DNA of 10,397 nt from Gemmatimonadota bacterium (GTDB taxonomy: Bacteria > Gemmatimonadota > Gemmatimonadetes > Gemmatimonadales > Gemmatimonadaceae). A model generated the notes under the pieces. It worked only from the letters and a program-made list of their open reading frames with translations, ran no database searches and had not been told where the DNA came from. The stretch is taken from positions 1 through 10,397 of the forward strand of contig CANJOX010000088.1 of assembly GCA_947475795.1 (NCBI GenBank), given 5' to 3'. Positions 1 to 9,813 of this stretch are shown here, in pieces (the first letter of the stretch is position 1; each line of letters opens with the position of its first letter). A program made the translations under genes and the position numbers.

Positions 1-86
1 CGGCCGGCCGCGCGGCGCGGAATGATGTCAGAACTGGATGCATACCGAAACCGGAGACGCGCGCTGTTACCCGAAGTGGAATACTA

Positions 87-1895
87 CTACCGTCGCGCCA
101 CCGCCGCCTTCGGCGTGTGCCACTCTTCACGGATCCAGTCCACCACCATCTCGATCTCGCGCTGCGTGAGGCTCTTCTCGGGGCCATACGACGGCATCCG
201 GTCGTTGTCACGCCCGAAGAAACGTGGGTGCGAGGGGTCGGTCACGAACGACACCATCCACTCCCGCGACGCCCAGCCGCTGAGCTCCGGGCTGTCGGTA
301 CCCACGTCCTGGAACTTGTGGCACTCGGCGCACCCGTTGGTAGTGTTCCGCATGAACCCGATGCCGGCCGCGATCTGCACGCTGTCCCGCCGGTCCAGCG
401 CCGCCTGCGACCGCAGCGCGGCCTGCGACGACAGCGCCAGCACCACGTTGCGGCGCATCGCCTTCTCCTCGTCGGTGTCCGGCATGTGATCGCCCAGCCA
501 CCCCACCATGTCCCCTTCGGTGTGCGCCGTGCCGCCCCAGTAGCGCGCGGTCAGAATCGTATCGGCGTTGAGGAAACCCTCCGCCCACGCGCGCGAGCCG
601 TACCCCTTGAGATCCGAGGCCGAGATGGAGTCCTTGGGGAGCGCGTTCCCCATGCCGTCGTGCCCATCGTAGCGATGGCAGGACGCACAGTTGCGCGAGA
701 AAATCCGCGGCCCCTGCGTGTACGAGTCGTCCCGCATCAGCGTGAGCGCACCGGTGATCGGCACCCCCGCGTTGGCCAACTCCACCGCCCGCGCTGCGTC
801 GCGCGTGGACACGGCCTTGGCCACCTGATACTCGGCGTCCTTGGCGTCGGCCGACATCGACTGCCACGTGAGCAACGCGGCGCCGGCCAGCAGCGCGCCC
901 ATGAAGCCCACATTGAAGCGGTGCCCGAGCTTCCAGCGTCCCAGGAACGGCATCGCCATCAGCACCACCAGCCCCAGCGAGGGGAGCACGATCGCGCCGA
1001 TGATTTCGGTCTTGCCCGGGAAGTACTTCAGGAACTGATACAGAAACAGGAAGTACCATTCCGGGCGGGCCGCCGAGAACTGCTCGGCGGGATCCGCCGG
1101 CGCGCCGAGCGGGGCGCCTTGCTCACGGACCACGAGGAAGAGCACCACCGCCAGCACGGCCAGGCACGCCACCGCATCGCGCAGCACCTGCTCCGGCCAG
1201 AACCCCTGATCGGGGCCCTTGAGCGGCTGCTTGGGGGTGAGCCCGTGCTTCCGGAACAGATACACGTGCCCCACGGTCAGCAGGATCACGAGCCCCGGCA
1301 GGACGCCGGCGTGCAGCGCGAAGAAGCGCGTGAGCGTGAGGTGTCCGTACGTGACCCCGCCCACCACCACGGTTTGCAGCGACTGACCAATCCCCGGACT
1401 CATGCCCACGATGTTGGTGGACACCGCCGTGGACCAGTAGCCGTTCTGGTCCCACGGCAGCAGATAGCCCGTGAGCGACAGCGCCAGCACCAGAATCAGC
1501 AGTAGCACGCCGAACCAGAAGTTCATCTCGCGCGGCGCCTTGTAGGCGCCGTCGATGATGACCTGCATGAGGTGCAAGACCAGCAACACCGTCATGGACT
1601 GGGCCACGAAATGGTGCAGCCCGCGCAGGAACCAGCCCCCCAGCATCTGGTGCTGGATGTAGTACACACTCTCCCACGCCGTCTGCGAACTCGGGCTGTA
1701 GGACATCCACAGAAACACGCCCGTGATGACCTGCACCACGAAGAAGAACGACAGCGTGCTGCCCCACACGTAGCGCCAGCGGGCGCCCCCGGGGACGTTC
1801 TCGAACAGGGTTTCGTGCAACAGCCCCTTGTACCCGGTGCGCGAGTCGATCCAGGAACCGATCGACGGGCGTTCGTTCCGCGGTTGCTCGGCCAT
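87..1895 (-). CDS. qcrB: Cytochrome b (b6 plus subunit IV type) fused to a C-terminal dihaem cytochrome c
   Basis: This is the membrane core of a quinol:cytochrome c reductase (bc complex), 602 aa. Residues 35-345 form the cytochrome b part. Haem b ligand pairs are H94/H108 and H195/H210; the second pair is 15 residues apart, as in cytochrome b6, not 14 as in mitochondrial cytochrome b. The quinol-site PEWY motif is at 278-281. Two c-type haem domains follow: CASCH at 403-407 with probable ligand M471, and CAECH at 522-526 with probable ligand M567. The ATG at 1895 overlaps the Rieske stop by one base (TGATG), so the two are translationally coupled; the frame stays open further upstream only over the Rieske gene. 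The cytochrome b part has one cysteine (C244) and valine where b6 carries its haem-binding cysteine, so a covalent extra haem is not expected. Family assignment is very secure; the exact acceptor is unknown. Confidence 0.95.
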   Translation of the reverse strand: MAEQPRNERPSIGSWIDSRTGYKGLLHETLFENVPGGARWRYVWGSTLSFFFVVQVITGVFLWMSYSPSSQTAWESVYYIQHQMLGGWFLRGLHHFVAQSMTVLLVLHLMQVIIDGAYKAPREMNFWFGVLLLILVLALSLTGYLLPWDQNGYWSTAVSTNIVGMSPGIGQSLQTVVVGGVTYGHLTLTRFFALHAGVLPGLVILLTVGHVYLFRKHGLTPKQPLKGPDQGFWPEQVLRDAVACLAVLAVVLFLVVREQGAPLGAPADPAEQFSAARPEWYFLFLYQFLKYFPGKTEIIGAIVLPSLGLVVLMAMPFLGRWKLGHRFNVGFMGALLAGAALLTWQSMSADAKDAEYQVAKAVSTRDAARAVELANAGVPITGALTLMRDDSYTQGPRIFSRNCASCHRYDGHDGMGNALPKDSISASDLKGYGSRAWAEGFLNADTILTARYWGGTAHTEGDMVGWLGDHMPDTDEEKAMRRNVVLALSSQAALRSQAALDRRDSVQIAAGIGFMRNTTNGCAECHKFQDVGTDSPELSGWASREWMVSFVTDPSHPRFFGRDNDRMPSYGPEKSLTQREIEMVVDWIREEWHTPKAAVARR

Positions 1896-2431
1896 CAGAC
1901 GGCGATCTTGTCGGGGGAGCCTTTCCGGAAGTTCTGGAAGCGCACCCAGACCTCGCCGTCGCGCACCACGGCCTCCAGTTCGTCCATGCCGCGCGGGCTC
2001 GGGCTCTTGGGATCGGCGATGGCGCCGTCCAGCGCGAAGCTGCTGCGGTGACAGGGGCAGAAGTAGCCCTGCGTGCTGGCGTTGTAGCCCACCGAGCACC
2101 CCAGATGCGGGCACACCGAGTTGAGCACGCGGACGGTGGCGTCACCGGTGCGCTGCAGGTACACCGAGCCCACAGGCACGTTTTCGGTCTTGTTCCACGC
2201 GTCCACCAGCGTGTCGAGCACCGGGAACTTGCGCGGCGGCCCGTCGGTCTCGAGCGAGGCCAGCGACGCCACGCGCACGAGGCCGCGCGTGTCCGATTTC
2301 CGACGTAGCGGATCGAACAGCGTGAACAGGCCGGCGATGGGCGCCACGGCGGAGATGAGGCCGCCCACCACGATCGAGGCGGCCTTGGCGACGAAGTTGC
2401 GCCGATCTGGCGCCTGCGTGGGGTCGGACAT
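1895..2431 (-). CDS. qcrA: Rieske [2Fe-2S] iron-sulphur protein of the bc complex
   Basis: The 178-aa protein passes electrons from quinol to the c-type haems of the neighbouring subunit, on the periplasmic side. An N-terminal twin-arginine-like stretch (DRRNFVAK, residues 9-16) and a hydrophobic anchor at about 17-38 fit Tat export with a retained membrane anchor. Box 1 is CPHLGC (107-112) and box 2 CPCHRS (125-130): cluster ligands C107, H109, C125, H128 and disulphide C112-C127. Box 2 has Arg where Gly is usual (CPCHGS). It is first in the operon with the cytochrome b-c gene. The start at 2431 gives the normal Rieske N-terminus but lacks a Shine-Dalgarno. An in-frame ATG at 2524 lies exactly where a transcript from the -10 box at 2531-2536 should begin, so a form with 31 extra residues is a real alternative. 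Confidence 0.93.
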   Translation of the reverse strand: MSDPTQAPDRRNFVAKAASIVVGGLISAVAPIAGLFTLFDPLRRKSDTRGLVRVASLASLETDGPPRKFPVLDTLVDAWNKTENVPVGSVYLQRTGDATVRVLNSVCPHLGCSVGYNASTQGYFCPCHRSSFALDGAIADPKSPSPRGMDELEAVVRDGEVWVRFQNFRKGSPDKIAV

Positions 2432-2530
2432 GGTGGCGGTGGGAATCCGGGAAGGCAGCAAAAGACACCGCACGCACGCGTACGGCGGGACACGGCGGGG
2501 CACCCATGCCCCGACGTATTCCATGCCCAT

Positions 2531-2536
2531 ATTATA
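2531..2536 (-). promoter_or_regulatory. -10 box (TATAAT) for the Rieske/cytochrome b-c operon
   Basis: A perfect TATAAT on the minus strand lies 100 bp upstream of the chosen Rieske start. No convincing -35 hexamer is visible. Transcription would be expected to start about seven bases downstream, at the A of an ATG at 2524. Confidence 0.55.
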
Positions 2537-2686
2537 CGCCGTGGAACGGCGCGCTGCTGACAGTGTTTACCGTATGTCAGCGATCGTGCAGCGCGCTGCG
2601 TTATGCGTGCAGTACGGCCTGCATCCACGTGCCGCCGATCGTCTCCGGCGGCGTACGGCTCCCACCCTCTCGTTCTCTATTTCCCC

Positions 2687-3148
2687 ATGCATCTGCGACT
2701 CCGTCAGTTCGGCGCGGTCTGCGTCCTGGCCCTCTCCATGGTGAGCACGGCCAGCGCCCAGCAGGACGAAGACAAGACGCCGCTCGGCAAGAAGATGAGC
2801 GCCATGAACACGGCCTTTAAGGCGGTGGGCCGCCAGATCGACGACGCCTCCAAGAACGCCAATACCCTCGAGCAGCTGGCGATCATGGAAACGAACGCCA
2901 AGGCGGCGCTCACCATGGAGCCCGAGAAGAAGGCCAAGGTGCCCGCGGGCGACCAAGCGAAGTTCACGGCGGGGTATCAGGCGGGCATGAAGGAGTTCAT
3001 CGCGACCGTGCAGAAATTGCAGGCGGCCATCAAGGCGGGTAAAAATGCGGACGCGGTGGCCATGTACGACGAACTGAAGGGACAGCAGCGCGAAGGGCAC
3101 AAGGAATACCGCCTGAAGAAGGCCGGCGCGCCCCCGGGCGGGAACTGA
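2687..3148 (+). CDS. Cytochrome b562-like periplasmic haem protein
   Basis: This 153-aa protein has a signal peptide (residues 1-24, cleavage after TASA) followed by a four-helix-bundle sequence of the soluble cytochrome b562 family. The family's two axial haem ligands have counterparts: a Met in the first helix (M37, in GKKMSAMN) and a His near the C-terminus (H138, in REGHKEYR; the E. coli equivalent is AYHQKYR). Helix 3 (AKFTAGYQAGMKEFIATVQKL is the local context at 91-111) also resembles the family. Haem would be bound non-covalently, since there is no CxxCH. It starts 255 bp from the Rieske gene and diverges from it, which suggests but does not prove a role as electron carrier for the bc complex. 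The frame is open from 2603, but the ATG at 2687 places the signal peptide correctly. It is probably cotranscribed with the DUF2809-type gene 38 bp downstream. Confidence 0.85.
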   Translation: MHLRLRQFGAVCVLALSMVSTASAQQDEDKTPLGKKMSAMNTAFKAVGRQIDDASKNANTLEQLAIMETNAKAALTMEPEKKAKVPAGDQAKFTAGYQAGMKEFIATVQKLQAAIKAGKNADAVAMYDELKGQQREGHKEYRLKKAGAPPGGN

Positions 3149-3186
3149 CGGCCGAGGCAGCGCTTCACCGCGGCGGGCGCGCGACC

Positions 3187-3576
3187 GTGCGCCCCCGCCT
3201 GCGGTACCTCGCGTTGGTCGTCCTGACCATCGCGGCCGGCCTGTGGGTGCACCGGGGCGGGACTATCCAGCATGCGATCGCTCGCGACGTCACCGGCGAC
3301 GCGCTCTGGGGGATGATGATGGCATGGGGGTGTGGCGTGCTCTTCCCACACCGTGCCGTGGGACCACGCAGCGCCGCGGCGCTCGCGGTGTGCGTGGCCG
3401 TGGAGGTCAGCCAACTCCTGCACACGCCGCTCCTCGCTGCCATCCGCCACACCACGCCGGGTATGCTGGTGCTGGGCAGCGGATTCGACGCGCGCGACCT
3501 CGTGGCGTACGCGCTCGGCGTGGCCGCGGCCGCCCTGCTGGAATACGGCGCTACGCGCGGACGACCGGCCCACTGA
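3187..3576 (+). CDS. DUF2809-type small integral membrane protein
   Basis: This 129-aa protein starts at GTG and has about four membrane helices (roughly residues 7-21, 38-53, 63-79 and 104-120). The motif GSGFDARDLVAYALG (97-111) and the preceding EVSQLL segment (73-78) are the hallmark of the DUF2809 family. That family has no established function, so none is assigned. The gene begins 38 bp after the cytochrome b562-like stop on the same strand and is probably cotranscribed. No Shine-Dalgarno is evident before the GTG. Length and topology are typical of the family. Confidence 0.8.
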   Translation: MRPRLRYLALVVLTIAAGLWVHRGGTIQHAIARDVTGDALWGMMMAWGCGVLFPHRAVGPRSAAALAVCVAVEVSQLLHTPLLAAIRHTTPGMLVLGSGFDARDLVAYALGVAAAALLEYGATRGRPAH

Positions 3577-3591
3577 CACCGCCGCGGTCCA

Positions 3592-3617
3592 GCGCTCCAA
3601 ACTGTAGCGTTGGCGCG
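3592..3617 (+). terminator. Imperfect hairpin after the DUF2809-type gene
   Basis: The arms GCGCTCCAA (3592-3600) and TTGGCGCG (3610-3617) can pair with one mismatch or bulge around a 9-nt loop, starting 16 bp after the stop codon. There is no T-tract. It is a weak terminator candidate. Confidence 0.3.
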
Positions 3618-3652
3618 TCACCTGTCCCTCGTAGGCCGCACCGGCCTTATCG

Positions 3653-3688
3653 GGCGAGCAGCTCGCCGAACGGTGCAAACCATTGCAC
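3653..3688. promoter_or_regulatory. Two adjacent short inverted repeats upstream of the ubiquitin/PEP-CTERM gene
   Basis: The first repeat is GGCGAG-CAG-CTCGCC (3653-3667) and the second GTGCAA-ACCA-TTGCAC (3673-3688); both have perfect 6-bp arms. They lie 150-185 bp before the start at 3837. They could be terminator stems of the upstream transcript or an operator for the downstream gene; the sequence does not decide between these. Confidence 0.3.
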
Positions 3689-3836
3689 GTCAACGATCTA
3701 TGCGTGCACCACCGCCCTCGTTCTCGACGGCTGAGGTTGGCACAAATACTGCTACCGAGTTTGTTCGGCCGCCGTGCACCGCGGCCCGCTCTCCGCCGCC
3801 GGTCGATGGCGATTCCTCCACCGAGACGCTCACGCT

Positions 3837-4727
3837 ATGCCGTTCCTCACACCGCGCACGCGCTCCGTCCCGTCGCCGTCTGGAGCGCTCACGAGCGGCG
3901 TGGCCGCGGGTGGCCGTGGCGTCTTCGGGGCCATCGCGAGGTGCTCGCGCCAGCTCACAACCCTGCTGCCGTTTGTGGCGCTGGCGTTGTGCCCTGAGGA
4001 TGCGAGCGCACAAATGCAGATCTTCACCAGGAACCTGACGCCTCTCGGAGCCCCCACGGTCACCCTGGACGTTGACGGCTCAGACGCGCTGGAGAAAGTC
4101 AAAGCCGACAACCAACACCAACTTGGCTATCTCGCGCAGAACCAGTTCCTGATCTTCGCGGGGAAGTTGCTGGAAGACGGCAGAACGCTGGCGGACTATA
4201 ACATTCAGAAGGAATCCACCATCAACATGGCGGTGATCGATGCCTTCAACGGGCTGTCGTTTTCCGGATTCCTGCCCGGTTCGCGAGGAGGGTTCTCGCC
4301 CTTCCTGATGCGGAGTGGCACCAGTGGTGCTGGCAGTGGATGGTCGGTGTTCAATTACGCGAACGCCGTGAATCTCTCGGCAACCCAAAGCGGTTTCTAC
4401 ACGCTCGACCTGGTTACGCTGACGCCCGGGGAGCCGCTCGTCAGGAGCGATGCATTCGGCGCGATGCCCGACTTTGATGGACAACGGGCCTACGACTGGA
4501 CCTTCCTCACCGCGACCGGCGGGATTTCCGGTTTCTCGGCCAATCAGTTTGTGATCAACACCGGAGATTTTGCCAACACCGTAAACGGCTCGTTCGCGGT
4601 GGTGCAGCAGGGCAACACCCTGGCGCTGTCGTACACGCCGGTGCCCGAGCCATCCACGTGGGTGTTGGTGATGACCGGACTCGCCTTCGGCGGGTGGCGC
4701 ATGTCCCGTCGCCGCCAGCGGGCCTGA
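3837..4727 (+). CDS. Exported PEP-CTERM protein with an N-terminal ubiquitin domain
   Basis: The 296-aa protein has three parts. Residues 1-58 are an N-terminal region with a long basic stretch and a hydrophobic core (40-52), ending DASAQ, a good signal-peptidase site after ASA. Residues 60-134 are ubiquitin: MQIF, then after a 3-residue insertion in the first beta hairpin TVTLDV, and [14 protein letters not shown] and DYNIQKEST nearly unchanged. Residues 137-268 are a Gly/Ser/aromatic-rich beta region typical of PEP-CTERM proteins (for example [15 protein letters not shown] at 219-233). VPEP (269-272), a hydrophobic helix (275-287) and a basic tail (RMSRRRQRA) form the PEP-CTERM sorting signal, which exosortase normally recognises and removes. 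No diglycine follows the ubiquitin domain. The ATG at 3837 is the chosen start; GTG at 3900 is an alternative that shortens the leader. Arg codons in the ubiquitin domain are AGG and AGA, uncommon in neighbouring genes. The gene appears monocistronic. Confidence 0.92.
4014..4238 (+). other. Ubiquitin domain within the PEP-CTERM gene
   Basis: Aligned by hand to eukaryotic ubiquitin 1-72, 41 positions are identical, and 23 of 26 between ubiquitin positions 41 and 66. Equivalents of K27, K48, K63, L8 and I44 are kept. K6, K11, K29 and K33 are replaced by R, P, D and Q. V70 becomes A, H68 becomes N, R42 becomes F and R72 becomes I. Three residues are inserted after T9. The positions of G75-G76 are occupied by F and N, so classical E1 activation is not possible. 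Predicted signal cleavage leaves the ubiquitin methionine as residue 1 or 2 of the mature protein. Confidence 0.9.
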
Positions 4728-4748
4728 CCGGACTCAGGTCACCGTGAT

Positions 4749-4773
4749 GCGTACGCGACCCGCTCGCGTACGC
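4749..4773. terminator. Perfect 10-bp hairpin between convergent genes
   Basis: GCGTACGCGA, loop CCCGC, TCGCGTACGC: a perfect stem placed 21 bp after the ubiquitin/PEP-CTERM stop and about 38 bp after the minus-strand zinc-ribbon stop. It has no T-tract on either side. Its position between convergent genes suggests a bidirectional terminator. Confidence 0.6.
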
Positions 4774-4811
4774 GCTCCACGTGGTCACGGCGTGCGTCGC
4801 CCTCCGTCAGG

Positions 4812-5006
4812 TCACCCCGTGGCGCAGGTCATGTCCTGTCCGCAGCACAGCGGCGACTTGATCTTGCCATGCCCGTTCGGGCACTTCGAAATGGCCACCA
4901 CGCGACCGTCCGGGGTGGTGAGGGAATCGTGCACCAGCGCATCACCGCACTTGGCGCAGCTGGCGTTCACCGCCATGCCGCACTTCTCGCACTCGTAGGT
5001 TGCCAT
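4812..5006 (-). CDS. Small zinc-ribbon protein of unknown function
   Basis: This 64-aa protein is built from metal-binding pairs: C6-x2-C9 and C17-x2-C20, then C42 with H46, and C54-C55 and C61 near the end. Such knuckles normally hold structural zinc. The middle (DGRVVAISKCPNGHGKIKSP) and the tail motif PLCCGQDM resemble small uncharacterised bacterial and archaeal zinc-ribbon proteins I have seen, but I cannot attach a function. It is the last gene of the minus-strand group with the monooxygenase-like and serine-hydrolase genes, 83 bp after the former, and may be cotranscribed. There is no signal peptide or membrane segment, so it is cytoplasmic. The ATG at 5006 lacks a clear Shine-Dalgarno, but the cysteine pattern starts right after it. 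Confidence 0.8.
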   Translation of the reverse strand: MATYECEKCGMAVNASCAKCGDALVHDSLTTPDGRVVAISKCPNGHGKIKSPLCCGQDMTCATG

Positions 5007-5089
5007 CGGTTCGCCGAATGATTGAGGGAAGGAAGAAATCGCAGCAGTAAGGTAACGCCTTCGCCGCACCGCCGCGTTCCGTGCCTGCG

Positions 5090-5359
5090 CTACACCTCGT
5101 ACTCGCGCACCCGCGCGCGCACGATCAGCGCCGTCAGGCCGTCGTCTGGCCCCGCGTCCCGAAAGTCGTGCAGGGCCTGGCGCGAGCCCCACACCTCGAA
5201 GACGTTGACGCGATGCTCGTCGAGCGGGTCGGCAGCGACGACGAAATCCTCGCACCCTGTGGTTTCCCGGGCGAGGTGCATCGCCATCTGCGAGCCGTCC
5301 AGTAAACGTTGGCGCTGCCCGGGCTGCACCTCGATCTGGCCGGCAACGATGATCGGCAT
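5090..5359 (-). CDS. Antibiotic biosynthesis monooxygenase (ABM/YgiN-like) domain protein
   Basis: The 89-aa protein is a single dimeric alpha/beta-barrel ABM domain: an N-terminal strand (IIVAGQIEV), a helix with basic residues, the GCEDFVVAADP strand (35-45) and the VNVFEVWGSRQALHDF segment (51-66), which matches the usual Y/F-E-x-W-x-S/D-x-x-A-x-x-x-H pattern of the family. Members include cofactor-free quinone-modifying monooxygenases and many uncharacterised stress proteins, so the substrate cannot be predicted. The length is normal for a stand-alone member and there is no export signal. The start at 5359 lies 3 bp from the serine-hydrolase stop, which indicates cotranscription. Confidence 0.82.
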   Translation of the reverse strand: MPIIVAGQIEVQPGQRQRLLDGSQMAMHLARETTGCEDFVVAADPLDEHRVNVFEVWGSRQALHDFRDAGPDDGLTALIVRARVREYEV

Positions 5360-5362
5360 GGC

Positions 5363-6544
5363 CTACTTCGTCGCGCGAATCAGCCGTTCCTGAACCGCAC
5401 GCAGTGGCAGCGTGGGCCCGCCGCTGATGTTCCACGCATTGAACACCACCACCATCTCCTGATCGGGAAACGCCATCGGGAACTGCCCGCCGAATCCGGA
5501 CCCGGCCCAGATGAACGCGTCCGGCTGTACCGGGTTGGCATACAACCACCACTTGTACCCGTACTTCGGCGCGCCCGCGCGAGCGCTGGTGGCGATCTGC
5601 GGTGTCACGGATTCGCGCACCCAGCGTTCCGACACGACGGTCGTTCCGTTCCAGCGGCCGCCCTGCAGCCACAGCTGCCAGATCCGCGCCAGGTCGGTCG
5701 CTTCGAGATACAGGCCGCCCTCGGTGTCGATGGCGCCCGAGGTGGTGCGCTTCCAGTGCCAGTTGGTGATGCCGAGGGGCGTGAAGAGATGGCGCGCCGC
5801 GTACTCCTCGATGTCGACGCCGGTGGCGCGGAAAAAGATGTGCGCGAGCAACGCGCTTTCGCCGCTGCTGTAGTTGAACTGTGTGCCCGGCTCGCGCATC
5901 ATCGGCCGGTCGATGGTGAACTTGACCCAGTCCGGGCTGGCCTCGAGCGCGCCGGCCGTGTTGCGCGGATCGCTGTACGGGATGCTTTCGTTCCAGTCGA
6001 ATCCGCCCGTCATCGTCAGCAAGTGGCGGATGGTGATGCGCCGCTTGCGATCGTCGAGGTTCGCGACGGTGGTGGTGTCCCAGAACGTGAGAATCGGCGT
6101 GTCGAGCGCGGGGAACTCACCACGGGTGACCGCCACGCCGATCACCGCCGATGCCACCGTCTTGGACACGGACTGCAGGGTGTGCAGGGTGCCCCGCCGA
6201 TACGTCGGGTGCCACCACGGGTTGAAGTAGTTGAAGGGCCCGGTCGGGTCGTGCGAATTGTTCAGCGACGCGCTCGCGCGCGATGAGTCACCGTAGATCG
6301 CGTCGTAGTCGCGCGGATACGTCTTGTCGGTGACGATCCGACCGCGACGAATGACCACCATGCGGTCGATGTTGCCGTACTTCCCCGCCCTGATCTCGGC
6401 GTCGAGGCTGTCGAGTACGGCCGGATTGAGACCGACCTTGGACGGCGTCGACGTTGGCCACGTGAATGACGTGGGCTGGGCACCGAGCGAGGAAGCGAGC
6501 GACGCCAAAAAGGCGACGGCGGAGCAGAAGGATCGGCATGTCAT
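5363..6544 (-). CDS. Secreted serine hydrolase, beta-lactamase class C / penicillin-binding-protein fold
   Basis: The 393-aa protein has a signal peptide (1-22, ending SLGAQ) and an alpha/beta serine hydrolase domain. The catalytic S-x-x-K is S125-V-S-K128 in LQSVSKTVAS. The Y-x-S/N element is Y225-S-S227 in FNYSSGES. The third box, usually HxG or KTG, corresponds to AGSGFGG (347-353). TMTGGFDW (178-184) and PLGIT (256-260) are also typical. Such enzymes hydrolyse esters, amides or D-amino-acid peptides in the periplasm; lactamase activity cannot be inferred. ATGs at 6550 and 6544 are both possible. I prefer 6544 because the TACAAT box abuts the 6550 codon and would start transcription at about 6544. 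The frame stays open to 6880, but that stretch resembles no protein. It leads a probable operon with the ABM-domain gene (3-bp gap). Confidence 0.9.
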   Translation of the reverse strand: MTCRSFCSAVAFLASLASSLGAQPTSFTWPTSTPSKVGLNPAVLDSLDAEIRAGKYGNIDRMVVIRRGRIVTDKTYPRDYDAIYGDSSRASASLNNSHDPTGPFNYFNPWWHPTYRRGTLHTLQSVSKTVASAVIGVAVTRGEFPALDTPILTFWDTTTVANLDDRKRRITIRHLLTMTGGFDWNESIPYSDPRNTAGALEASPDWVKFTIDRPMMREPGTQFNYSSGESALLAHIFFRATGVDIEEYAARHLFTPLGITNWHWKRTTSGAIDTEGGLYLEATDLARIWQLWLQGGRWNGTTVVSERWVRESVTPQIATSARAGAPKYGYKWWLYANPVQPDAFIWAGSGFGGQFPMAFPDQEMVVVFNAWNISGGPTLPLRAVQERLIRATK

Positions 6545-6550
6545 GGCCAT

Positions 6551-6556
6551 ATTGTA
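6551..6556 (-). promoter_or_regulatory. -10 box (TACAAT) for the serine-hydrolase operon
   Basis: TACAAT on the minus strand is followed directly by ATGGCCATG, the same layout as the Rieske promoter (TATAAT then ATGGGCATG). The expected transcription start coincides with the second ATG at 6544. No clear -35 is seen; a 5-bp inverted repeat (CCGCC...GGCGG, 6562-6577) occupies part of the region just upstream. Confidence 0.5.
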
Positions 6557-7020
6557 CGGGGCCGCCGTGCGTGGCGGAATGGCCGTTGTCGGCGTGCCGA
6601 TCCCCATCAGCGTCGCCCCCATCACAAGCCGGAGCGTTTCCGACTCCGTCCCGATCGTGTCCGCGATCCGATCGACGCTGCCCAAGGCAGTCGTGCGAAC
6701 ACGAGTCCGATCGCGAACGCGCAGGCACTGATGAACAGAGTTCGTATTGCCTTTCCTTCTCGGTTCCGGCGGGCGATTCCGGCGCTGCGCAGGTGGTGCT
6801 TCGCGTGGGGCGCTGCGCCCGTTCGCCTTTTGCTTCTGCGGGCCAAACACCGGCACGTGCGCCATGGCTCGCGAGAGCACGATCAGGGGCGTATTGTAAG
6901 GGTCGCACGGTGGAGAACCGCCGGCCGGGCGTGTGGAGCGGCCCGCAATGCCGCACCGGCATGTACCAAGGCGGCCGCATAGCCGGTCGCATCATTCTTC
7001 ACCGTTACCGGACAAACTCC
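6557..7020. other. Intergenic region without a supportable gene
   Basis: Several frames are open here because the DNA is GC-rich, but none gives a recognisable protein. Visible structures are a G/C hairpin GGGCG-CTG-CGCCC (6808-6820) followed by a T-rich stretch (6826-6837), which looks like a plus-strand rho-independent terminator with no gene before it; and a perfect inverted repeat ATGCCG-CAC-CGGCAT (6948-6962), about 60 bp before the beta-helix gene. A second minus-strand TACAAT occurs near 6893. On the minus strand a purine-rich AAGGAAAGG precedes a hydrophobic reading frame that lacks an ATG/GTG/TTG and ends at 6622; I do not call it. Confidence 0.4.
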
Positions 7021-7401
7021 ATGGCACACGCGAACGACCGCATCCAGGGCAACCGGGTCCTCACCATCACGGGATCCGACCACGTGACCGTCGGCACTAC
7101 GCAGACAGAGACGATCGCTGGTAGCCGCACCGAGTCGATCGGGTTGAGTGCGTCGGTACACATCGGAAGTGATCAGGCCACCACGATCGGTCAGAACATG
7201 AAGATCAAGGCAGGCAAGGTCGTGACCATCGACGCCGGTGATGTCCTTGAGCTCGTGGTGGGCTCCGCGCGGCTGACGATGAAGAAGGACGGCACGATCG
7301 AGCTCAGAGGCGGCAACATCACCATCGTGGGCACGGGCAAAATGACAGTAAATGGAGCCGGCGATTTCGGGATATCGGGAAACAAGATCACGGGAAACTA
7401 G
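7021..7401 (+). CDS. Free-standing VgrG/gp5 C-terminal beta-helix (spike needle) protein
   Basis: The 126-aa protein reads like the last part of a type VI secretion VgrG. Residues 20-66 carry short repeats with Gly about every eight residues (G25, G34, G41, G49, G57, G65; VTVG, TIAG, SIG, HIG, TIG), the repeat that builds the trimeric beta-helix of gp5/VgrG needles. The second half (SARLTMKKDGTIELRGG, NITIVGTGKMTV, then SGNKITGN) matches the usual VgrG ending. There is no gp27/gp5 base domain, signal peptide or effector domain. The upstream in-frame sequence does not resemble VgrG, so this is not simply a visible frameshift of a longer gene. No Shine-Dalgarno is seen. It may be an accessory spike protein for a contractile system elsewhere, or a domesticated fragment. 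Confidence 0.75.
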   Translation: MAHANDRIQGNRVLTITGSDHVTVGTTQTETIAGSRTESIGLSASVHIGSDQATTIGQNMKIKAGKVVTIDAGDVLELVVGSARLTMKKDGTIELRGGNITIVGTGKMTVNGAGDFGISGNKITGN

Positions 7402-8189: not shown

Positions 8190-8252
8190 ATGTGCTGTGG
8201 TGTTCCACGCGCGGAGACGCGCGCTCGTCGCAGCCCGTTCCGTGTCGCGCGT

Positions 8253-8258
8253 AGTATA
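8253..8258 (-). promoter_or_regulatory. Possible -10 box (TATACT) for the dehydrogenase gene
   Basis: TATACT on the minus strand lies 74 bp upstream of the GTG start. No good -35 accompanies it. Confidence 0.35.
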
Positions 8259-8296
8259 CCCGATCGCTCGCGCCGCGATGACACGGGGGCGCGTGT

Positions 8297-8365
8297 CGTT
8301 TCCGGCGTTTGGCGTTTCCGGCGTTTGGCGGGCCGGCGTTTGGCGGGCCGGCGTTTGGCGGGCCG
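8297..8365. repeat. Composite minisatellite, 16-bp x2 merging into 15-bp x3
   Basis: CGTTTCCGGCGTTTGG occurs twice in tandem (8297-8312, 8313-8328). It overlaps a perfect triplet of GCGTTTGGCGGGCCG (8321-8335, 8336-8350, 8351-8365). The array sits between the divergent dehydrogenase and amidohydrolase genes, 90 bp before the latter. Open frames through it encode only repeat peptides and are not called as genes. Confidence 0.9.
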
Positions 8366-8384
8366 GTCGCGCGAACGGTAGGAT
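8355..8384 (+). promoter_or_regulatory. Possible promoter of the amidohydrolase gene, with its -35 inside the minisatellite
   Basis: TTGGCG (8355-8360, four matches to TTGACA) and TAGGAT (8379-8384, four matches to TATAAT) are 18 bp apart. The -35 candidate lies in the last 15-bp repeat; the other two 15-bp units carry the same TTGGCG. Both boxes are imperfect. Confidence 0.3.
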
Positions 8385-8454
8385 ACGCGTACGAGAGAGC
8401 CATCGCGCGACGGCTCGTCCTCCAACACCGTCTCCGTCCCTCGCCCGCCCGTCC

Positions 8455-9813
8455 ATGCCTTCCCTGTCCGTCGTGTTGCAGTTGCTGGTCATCACCCACG
8501 CCACCGTCGTGGATCCTGACGCGGCGCGCCCACGACGCGACCAGACCATCGTCGTGCGCGGTACCCGCATCGAGCGCGTGGGGCCCAGCGCGTCGACCGC
8601 AGTGCCGCGGGGCGCACGCGTGGTCGATGCCACGGGGAAGTTCGTGATCCCGGGGATGTGGGACATGCACATGCACGCCGACGTCCCCGGGGGGCGAGCG
8701 CTGCTGCCGCTGTATGTCGCGCACGGCGTGACGGGGGTGCGCGACATGAACGCGCGGTTGGAGGTGCTGCGCGGCTTTCAGCGCGACGTGGCGGCGGGGA
8801 CGCTGGTGGGGCCGCGCATGGTGGTCTCAGGGCCGTTTCTCGTGGGGCGCCCGCTCCCACCGGAGTTGGGGATCGCGCACTACGTGGTGACTGACTCCGC
8901 CAGCGCGGCGACCGCCGTGGCGGCGGTGGCGGCGTCGGGCGCGGACTTCATCAAGGTGCACAACGGGAACCCCGTCGAGGCCTACCGGGTGATCGCCGCC
9001 GAGGCGCGGCGCCGGGGGATGGTGTTCGCCGGGCACGTGGCGTCGCCCACAACCGTGGTGGAGGCGGCCGTCGCGGGGCAGCGGTCGCAGGAGCACCTGT
9101 ACGCCTTCCCCAATCGCTGCAACGCCGCCGACTCCGCCGTGGTGGCCGCGGCGCTCCCCGTCCAGCAGTTCATCATGGGCGCGTGCACGTCGGCGTCGCA
9201 GGCGGAGCTGTACACGGCGCTCGCGCGCCACCGCACGTGGGTGACCCCCACGCTGATCGTGCAGGAGCTGGTGGCCACCATGCGCCCGTCCATCGTGGCC
9301 GGCGACAGCACGGCGCAGTTCTACGCCGATTCGCTGATGCGCCGCGTGGCGATGGAGATGGAGCTGCCGCCCACGCCCTCGCCCGCCGCCATCGCGGCGG
9401 GCGCGGTGCTGTTCCGCAAGCGGATGGAGGTGGTGCGCGGGCTGCACGCGGCCGGCGTGCCGCTGCTGGGGGGCACCGACGCGCCGCTCGCCGCCGGGGG
9501 GCCCGGGAAGTCCCTGGTGGGGGAGCTGCGCCACTTGGTGGCGGCCGGCCTCTCGCCACGCGAGGCGTTGCGCTCAGTGACCACGGAACCGGCGCGCTAC
9601 TTCGCGGCGGATTCGATTGGGGCGGATTCGCTCGGGGCGGTGGCGCCGCGGGCGGTGGCCGATCTGGTGGTACTGGACGCCGACCCGTTGGTTGACATCG
9701 GCCACGTGGCCCGCGTGCACCTGGTCGTGGCCAACGGTCGCGTGTACGACCGGGCGGCGCTGGCCGCGCTGGTCGCCGAGGCACGGCGTGTGGCGCGGAG
9801 CGCGGCGCGGTAG
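8455..9813 (+). CDS. Metal-dependent amidohydrolase (imidazolonepropionase/prolidase-like)
   Basis: The 452-aa protein has the complete binuclear amidohydrolase signature: H72-x-H74 in MWDMHMHAD, a lysine in FIKVHNG (K167) able to bridge two metals, H194 in FAGHV, H214 in SQEHLY and the catalytic Asp D342 in GGTDAPL. The N- and C-terminal strands form the small beta-sandwich (ATVVDPD...QTIVVRGTRIERVG; ADLVVLDADP...ARVHLVVANGRVYD). Relatives hydrolyse imidazolonepropionate, X-Pro peptides and other amides, and many are exported. Here the N-terminus is too short for a signal peptide, so a cytoplasmic location is more likely. The start at 8455 puts a short hydrophobic strand at the usual place. 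The frame is open from 8197, but that extension runs through the minisatellite and has no protein character. Confidence 0.9.
   Translation: MPSLSVVLQLLVITHATVVDPDAARPRRDQTIVVRGTRIERVGPSASTAVPRGARVVDATGKFVIPGMWDMHMHADVPGGRALLPLYVAHGVTGVRDMNARLEVLRGFQRDVAAGTLVGPRMVVSGPFLVGRPLPPELGIAHYVVTDSASAATAVAAVAASGADFIKVHNGNPVEAYRVIAAEARRRGMVFAGHVASPTTVVEAAVAGQRSQEHLYAFPNRCNAADSAVVAAALPVQQFIMGACTSASQAELYTALARHRTWVTPTLIVQELVATMRPSIVAGDSTAQFYADSLMRRVAMEMELPPTPSPAAIAAGAVLFRKRMEVVRGLHAAGVPLLGGTDAPLAAGGPGKSLVGELRHLVAAGLSPREALRSVTTEPARYFAADSIGADSLGAVAPRAVADLVVLDADPLVDIGHVARVHLVVANGRVYDRAALAALVAEARRVARSAAR

Follow-up and report, generated by a model that had tools for sequence, protein, structure and literature searches.

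A ubiquitin domain at the predicted mature N-terminus of a Gemmatimonadota PEP-CTERM protein, and its relation to other exported-type bacterial ubiquitins

Introduction

Ubiquitin counts as a hallmark of the cytoplasm of eukaryotes, and a ubiquitin domain at the front of an apparently exported bacterial protein raises the question of what it does there. The protein studied here is encoded in a stretch of 10,397 nucleotides from a Gemmatimonadota genome, hereafter the window. An earlier note, made from the sequence alone, named the secreted ubiquitin of Bacteroides fragilis, BfUbb, as the closest precedent. B. fragilis has been called one of few bacteria with a eukaryotic-like ubiquitin (PMC5705921). 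BfUbb lacks the terminal Gly-Gly, has ubiquitin Met1 as its first residue after signal peptide cleavage, and inhibits other strains (PMC5705921, PMC3352274). Exported and apparently non-conjugating domains in many phyla bear on the view of ubiquitin as a eukaryotic hallmark. Their spread over phyla and anchors makes it testable which extracellular factor constrains the ubiquitin surface, and natural variants with a changed binding face are useful for ubiquitin engineering. Judged by the titles and abstract openings of the matches listed, we found neither ubiquitin in PEP-CTERM proteins nor a multi-phylum exported class in the open-licence literature; some members of the class already carry the names ubiquitin-like protein or ubiquitin family protein in public records.

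Results and Discussion

The gene and its predicted product

The open reading frame, its coordinates and the order of signal peptide, ubiquitin domain and PEP-CTERM region are as the earlier note described them (Table 1). The C-terminal region matches the Pfam PEP-CTERM family PF07589 (E 8.4e-5, 22.9 bits against a cut-off of 20.7) and the NCBIfam model TIGR02595, PEP_CTERM (24 bits, cut-off 16). The PEPST motif, hydrophobic helix and Arg cluster are common to PEP-CTERM/exosortase proteins, from which the window protein differs in its N-terminal ubiquitin domain. Its start codon may lie downstream of 3837: aligned relatives begin at matching or shorter N-terminal positions, and initiation at a GTG at 3900 instead would shorten the N-terminus and leave the mature protein the same. 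By the -3/-1 rule the mature chain probably begins at Q59-M60, one residue ahead of ubiquitin Met1, because ASA at 56-58 forms an AxA motif. A hydrophobic stretch followed by ASA-Q-M ahead of the ubiquitin, with cleavage predicted, is also the arrangement of BfUbb-type secreted ubiquitin. The earlier note expected display outside the cytoplasm, and the sequence is in keeping with apparent export.

Table 1. Features of the ubiquitin/PEP-CTERM gene, in window coordinates
Feature	Coordinates	Strand	Remarks
Signal peptide - ubiquitin domain - middle domain - PEP-CTERM protein gene	3837..4727	+	296 aa, stop included; Pfam and full-length relatives
N-terminal extension and predicted signal peptide, residues 1-58	3837..4010	+	Hydrophobic core about 40-52, ASA 56-58
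Ubiquitin domain, residues 60-136	4014..4244	+	Pfam, PDB sequences, AlphaFold2, Foldseek
PLG insertion, 3 residues, in the beta1-beta2 loop after ubiquitin Thr9	4041..4049	+	Alignment
Residues 99-136, the C-terminal half of the ubiquitin domain and its part closest to ubiquitin	4131..4244	+	Alignment; carries F104 (= R42), N130 (= H68), A132 (= V70), I134 (= R72)
Middle domain, residues 137-267	4245..4637	+	Beta-rich in a weak model; without Pfam match
PEP-CTERM sorting tail, residues 268-292: PEPST, hydrophobic helix, Arg cluster	4638..4712	+	PF07589, TIGR02595

Identity and fold of the ubiquitin domain

Pfam assigns residues 74-132 to the ubiquitin family PF00240 (E 1.9e-14, 53.6 bits against a cut-off of 25.4). 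A search of PDB sequences returned 308 distinct matches at E≤0.001, and the 60 listed carry the names of ubiquitins, of fusions with ubiquitin or of engineered forms, one of them (4nnj_B) being labelled Uba1. Counted by eye on the alignment, the domain matches ubiquitin residues 1-70 at 41 positions, three residues being inserted behind Thr9, and is identical at 23 of the 26 positions from 41 to 66, the differences being R42F, Q49L and S57A; the counts of 41 and of 23 of 26 agree with the earlier note. The whole AlphaFold2 model, built from 23 sequences, is weak (pLDDT 56.5, pTM 0.38), and within it residues 61-130 show ubiquitin-like secondary structure with block pLDDT values of 64-90. Foldseek found 512 PDB matches to the model at E≤0.001. 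Among the matches listed, 49 of 50 titles name ubiquitin or Ub, 3rul being the exception, and 5ydr_A superposes with a TMt of 0.94 and 55% identity over 77 columns of predicted fold. The comparison with ubiquitin structures that had been proposed therefore came out in favour of a ubiquitin-like fold. A viral fold search, whose matches were for the most part viral ubiquitins and long polyproteins that superposed poorly, was set aside.

Relatives, flanking sequence and the question of contamination

Relatives of the window protein are encoded on contigs of two Gemmatimonadota MAGs (L001 and L002, 81-82% identity) and in a Burkholderiales MAG (L003, 50% identity in the best segment). Our family alignment (A1, n=23) comprises the window protein, L003 and 21 proteins picked among the 120 matches listed, two of them Gemmatimonadota entries. 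By eye, 12 of the 23 tails are PEP-type and 10 are VPEI/VPEID-type, presumably a related sorting signal; the remaining one is cut short. The window-type gene is rare in Gemmatimonadota: PF00240 matched 4 of 395 genomes at E≤0.001, and the two that pass the cut-off are the genomes of L001 and L002.

The flanks of the gene are shared with L002, which is 96.3% identical over window positions 8-3195 and 88.3% identical over 3580-5939, and which lacks positions 3196-3579. Binned at 150 bases, identity lies at 86-100% as far as 3150, at 65-93% across 3601-4800 and at 89-99% between 4801 and 5939. Since bin identity drops over 3601-4800 between similar flanks, the whole gene together with its 5' side, and not the ubiquitin part alone, is a divergent, fast-changing island.

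Eukaryotic contamination was considered and rejected. It is unlikely because full-length relatives occur in the two Gemmatimonadota MAGs, whose contigs share layout and flanks with the window, in the Burkholderiales MAG and among proteins from several other sources; other exported-type ubiquitins are found in isolate genomes, one of them complete (L005). Independent assemblies had been named as the place to look for the gene, and copies are indeed present in L001, L002 and others, with the qualification that the record titles of L001 and L002 suggest one sampling campaign, so that these two may not be fully independent.

A changed receptor face

Ubiquitin receptors use the L8/I44/H68/V70 face together with R42 and R72. 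The window protein retains L8 and I44 and has replaced H68, V70, R42 and R72. Across its family the face reads L8 in 20/22, F or Y at 42 in 23/23, F44 in 22/23, A70 in 22/23 and I72 in 23/23, with N, D or S at position 68 and H68 in none, so that the intact patch of a canonical receptor ligand is absent from the family. In A1, the four I44-patch positions match ubiquitin in 21 of 91 cells, 20 of these being L8, and the six rim positions in 26 of 138 cells. Of the cells at 15 ubiquitin core positions, 87% are hydrophobic and 204 of 341 hold the ubiquitin residue. As polar face residues have given way to nearly invariant hydrophobic ones, the alignment suggests that the changed face is buried on the next domain, which is the simplest explanation, or meets a new partner.

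Mean pairwise identity in A1 is 66% for the ubiquitin part (N-terminal half 62%, C-terminal half 70%) and 75% for the middle domain; the signal peptide and the C-terminal tail, at 51% each, both fall below the ubiquitin part. Between L001 and L002 the ubiquitin part is 75% and the middle domain 93% identical, whereas between the window protein and L001 the values are 78% and 81% with dN of 0.115 and 0.113, and between the window protein and L002 dN is only somewhat higher in the ubiquitin part (0.158 versus 0.112). Faster change of ubiquitin than of the middle domain is therefore clear only for L001-L002 and modest elsewhere. For the three closest pairs omega is 0.60-0.76 in the ubiquitin part and 0.26-0.50 in the middle domain. 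Relaxed constraint would leave a similar picture.

The ubiquitin and middle domains mostly travel together. A search with residues 137-296 returned 22 proteins, the window's own included, and 18 of these carry PF00240. By eye, the truncated P0121 and P0124 still have the C-terminal half of a ubiquitin-like domain, P0125 carries a diverged copy, and P0127 shares only the C-terminal part and has no recognisable ubiquitin remnant. A Pfam scan of residues 137-267 gave no match, and a model of the middle domain (pLDDT 63) had 62 matches among PDB folds at E≤10, none of them at E≤0.001.

Conjugation and anchoring

A protein modifier is expected to end in Gly-Gly; in the window protein positions 75-76 are F-N and the chain continues. 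The three nearest genomes (G001, G002 and G003), MAGs that may be incomplete, gave no match to the E2 family PF00179. A wider E2 search took 36 of 80 loci and, with L014 left out, covered 35 genomes, in which two partial matches lie just above the cut-off. Because the diglycine is missing, R72 is replaced by Ile and the three nearest genomes lack a recognisable E2, conjugation by the window ubiquitin is very unlikely, in agreement with the earlier note.

A search for the exosortase family PF09721 gave no match in G001 and G002, Gemmatimonadota MAGs that may be incomplete; the family is present in G003 and in 32 of 150 Gemmatimonadota genomes. PEP-CTERM matches number 16 in G001 and 11 in G002. 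Anchoring of the window protein, predicted from its tail, is therefore putative.

A wider class of exported-type ubiquitins

Exported ubiquitin in bacteria is commoner than the earlier note assumed when it took BfUbb as the closest precedent. From a genome scan we analysed the best 80 of 176 stretches encoding relatives, calling signal peptides by our own rule, which combines hydrophobicity with an AxA-type motif. These 80 loci hold 86 ubiquitin ORFs, 77 of which have a hydrophobic stretch ≤45 residues upstream of the domain; the motif lies within 6 residues in 75 of these and exactly before ubiquitin Met1 in 59. The 77 signal-like ORFs represent 74 loci in eleven bacterial phyla (as named in record titles, four of them resting on one record each), as well as an archaeal MAG and two records without a placement. 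Bacillota contribute 37, Pseudomonadota 13, Verrucomicrobiota 7 and the rest 1-3 each, with isolates included. The anchors are many: among 87 members including the window protein, Pfam recognises dockerin tails in 12, autotransporter in 11, PEP-CTERM in 5, SLH in 4, T9SS in 2 and IPTL-CTERM in 2, and NCBIfam recognises LPXTG in 2.

The scan patterns included ADYNIQKE, so invariance at ubiquitin 57-64 among the 83 other domains is partly built in. Family-profile searches of Gemmatimonadota, Verrucomicrobiota and the Ruminococcus albus 8 family are free of this bias. In Verrucomicrobiota, the phylum of L005, 13 of 387 genomes match, and a hydrophobic stretch precedes 15 of the 16 matches, L095 being without one. 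For the Ruminococcus albus 8 family, 9 of 197 genomes match; 7 of the nine matches clearly follow a hydrophobic stretch, L114 is internal and L116 is doubtful as a ubiquitin.

These other exported-type ubiquitins (Bacillota, Verrucomicrobiota, Pseudomonadota and others) share with the window family a signal-like stretch, a ubiquitin at or close to the mature N-terminus and a variable C-terminal module, but they are closer to human ubiquitin (median 63 of 72 identical, range 41-69, versus 34-41 in the window protein, L001, L002 and L003). Most of the 83 domains from the best 80 of 176 loci keep the receptor face (I44 in 75, L8 in 70, H68 in 70, V70 in 61, R42 in 66), as do many of the 24 profile-found domains, partly the same genes (I44 17, L8 18, H68 21, V70 15). 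The diglycine has decayed, G75 being present in 27 of the 83, G76 in 10 and both in 7. Signal-like ubiquitins that keep GG at 75-76 were noted in L025, L031, L044, L052 and L075; in L025, L031 and L075 further sequence lies behind it, a format that eukaryotic deubiquitinases cleave.

The other exported-type ubiquitins differ from the window family also in that the ubiquitin is mostly more conserved than the tail. Tails could be aligned in 77 pairs, from which we left out six: the window-family pairs L001-L002, L001-L003 and L002-L003, and three from Actinomycetota whose tails are ≥95% identical; ubiquitin is the less conserved part in all six. In the 71 pairs that remain, which are interdependent and weighted toward Bacillota, the tail has changed more than ubiquitin in 65 (median identities 0.50 and 0.90, respectively). 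The six exceptions are L019 and L027 versus L028, both artefacts of ungapped comparison, the tandem pair of L005 and three L046/L060 pairs. dS could be measured in 47 pairs; their median omega is 0.09 in ubiquitin against 0.30 in the tail, and ubiquitin has the lower value in 42. As dS itself is lower in ubiquitin than in the tail in 34 of the 47, module exchange or codon constraint may explain some of the conservation. When ubiquitin identity is ≥93%, tails are without detectable similarity in 102 of 162 pairs.

Taken together, we propose tentatively, and with rather less than even confidence, that bacteria of about eleven phyla share envelope proteins in which ubiquitin would serve as a portable mature N-terminal head under strong purifying selection, with a decayed conjugation tail, and that much of its face was rebuilt as a conserved aromatic surface in the Gemmatimonadota/Burkholderiales family. 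Strong purifying selection despite the decayed tail would imply a conserved extracellular partner. The wider class deserves study.

Several members stand apart. The ubiquitins of L007, a rumen Clostridia MAG, and L029, a Verrucomicrobia MAG, are 99% identical as protein and 75% as DNA, and their tails have no detectable similarity; either an exchange of the module with silent changes afterwards or independent transfers would account for this. Actinomycetota proteins with a ubiquitin domain and no clear signal peptide occur in L046, L060, L072 and L076, in two copies in the first three, and the ubiquitin parts of the L046/L060 copies differ more than their tails. In the Verrucomicrobiota loci L104 and L004 an exported-type ubiquitin is joined to a PEP-CTERM-like end; since these proteins are otherwise unlike the window protein, the ubiquitin/PEP-CTERM fusion may have arisen more than once. 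A ubiquitin family protein lies on a Ruminococcus albus 7 plasmid of 420,706 bases (NC_014824.1:388207-388431). Among plasmids, a relative of L055 with a ubiquitin domain was found in three records; two of these also match the window protein, none over most of its length.

What the ubiquitin head may do

We favour, with about an even chance of being right, the reading that the domain has been co-opted as the head of an anchored surface protein, with a role in structure or recognition, rather than being a modifier or a classical ubiquitin decoy. The gene would specify a Sec-exported envelope or matrix protein whose signal peptide would be cut just ahead of ubiquitin Met1, leaving the ubiquitin domain to fold beyond the cytoplasm as an N-terminal head. 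Going by the known PEP-CTERM/exosortase pathway, the tail would tie the protein to the cell surface or to the exopolymer layer. The head, its diglycine absent, would no longer modify proteins, and the receptor face, L8 aside, has become an aromatic/aliphatic face nearly invariant in the family. On a tentative structural reading, this rebuilt face would most likely pack on the protein's own middle domain, or bind a new partner; the more variable N-terminal half with its loop insertion would probably be the exposed side.

The strongest rival, though unlikely, is that the domain is a neutral or stabilising cap, a small, fast-folding, protease-resistant N-terminal module that would shield the exported protein while its surface drifts. 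The kept core and changed surface of the window family, the higher omega of its ubiquitin part in the three closest pairs and the pairing of near-identical ubiquitins with dissimilar tails are what such a cap would give. Drift alone, however, does not give almost invariant new residues at positions 42, 70 and 72, and outside the window family ubiquitin is the more conserved part in nearly all comparable pairs.

The earlier note had offered a decoy, adhesin or ligand as possible roles. A displayed ligand for ubiquitin-binding proteins of protists or hosts would fit the face kept by most other bacterial ubiquitin domains, and the window protein does retain L8 and I44. We nevertheless regard this as a poor prospect for the window protein, clearly behind the cap: its family changes most of the L8/I44/H68/V70 face together with R42 and R72 (H68, V70, R42 and R72 throughout, I44 in 22/23, with L8 kept), which disfavours the classical decoy reading, and record titles name sources as different as rumen, lake or pond, and mine tailings.

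Slightly less probable again is a contact-dependent or secreted antagonist of related bacteria, proposed by analogy with BfUbb. The export, mature N-terminus and inhibitory activity of BfUbb are the model for this, and the window gene is a divergent island between close relatives, but no immunity gene was recognised beside it among the window ORFs scanned, and, unlike the free BfUbb, the protein has a PEP-CTERM tail suggestive of anchoring. The likeness to BfUbb otherwise extends to a signal peptide ending at or beside ubiquitin Met1, the missing terminal GG and a patchy distribution; for BfUbb, conjugation enzymes were not seen in the organism's own genome (PMC3352274, PMC5705921). BfUbb differs as a free protein with 63% identity (48/76) to human ubiquitin and a C-terminal Cys (PMC3352274, PMC5705921); the window domain heads a PEP-CTERM protein, one of its loops carries an insertion and its binding face is changed. 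That the domain works as a conjugated modifier in the envelope is extremely improbable: only the fold speaks for it, and the missing diglycine, R72I, R42F/Y and the E2 results speak against it.

Origin of the domain

Acquisition directly from a eukaryote had been suggested from the degree of identity and is not supported in that form. A tree over 72 columns, built from 85 bacterial and 18 eukaryotic domains (103 in all), leaves 63 of its 100 inner branches open and mixes the two groups. As this tree resolves almost nothing, the immediate source of the window ubiquitin could be another bacterium as well as a eukaryote. Nor does the tree separate single from repeated transfer.

Neighbouring genes

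Directly upstream, at 3187-3576 (+), lies a DUF2809 gene (PF10990), within the segment absent from L002. The same place in L001 and L002 is without DUF2809, and we therefore rejected this gene as a required partner of the window gene. Other neighbours scanned with Pfam (cytochrome b562, ABM, beta-lactamase fold) suggest no partner. Further downstream, ORF 6466-7401 has a stretch at 7033-7218 (+) resembling the gp5/VgrG C-terminal trimerisation region (PF22178, 30.5 bits, below the cut-off of 30.9); no further phage or T6SS genes were recognised by Pfam among the nine window ORFs scanned. Finally, the amidohydrolase ORF at 8197-9813 opens with a short tandem repeat, VWRAG x3, at 8323-8367 (+), because of which its true start probably lies further downstream.
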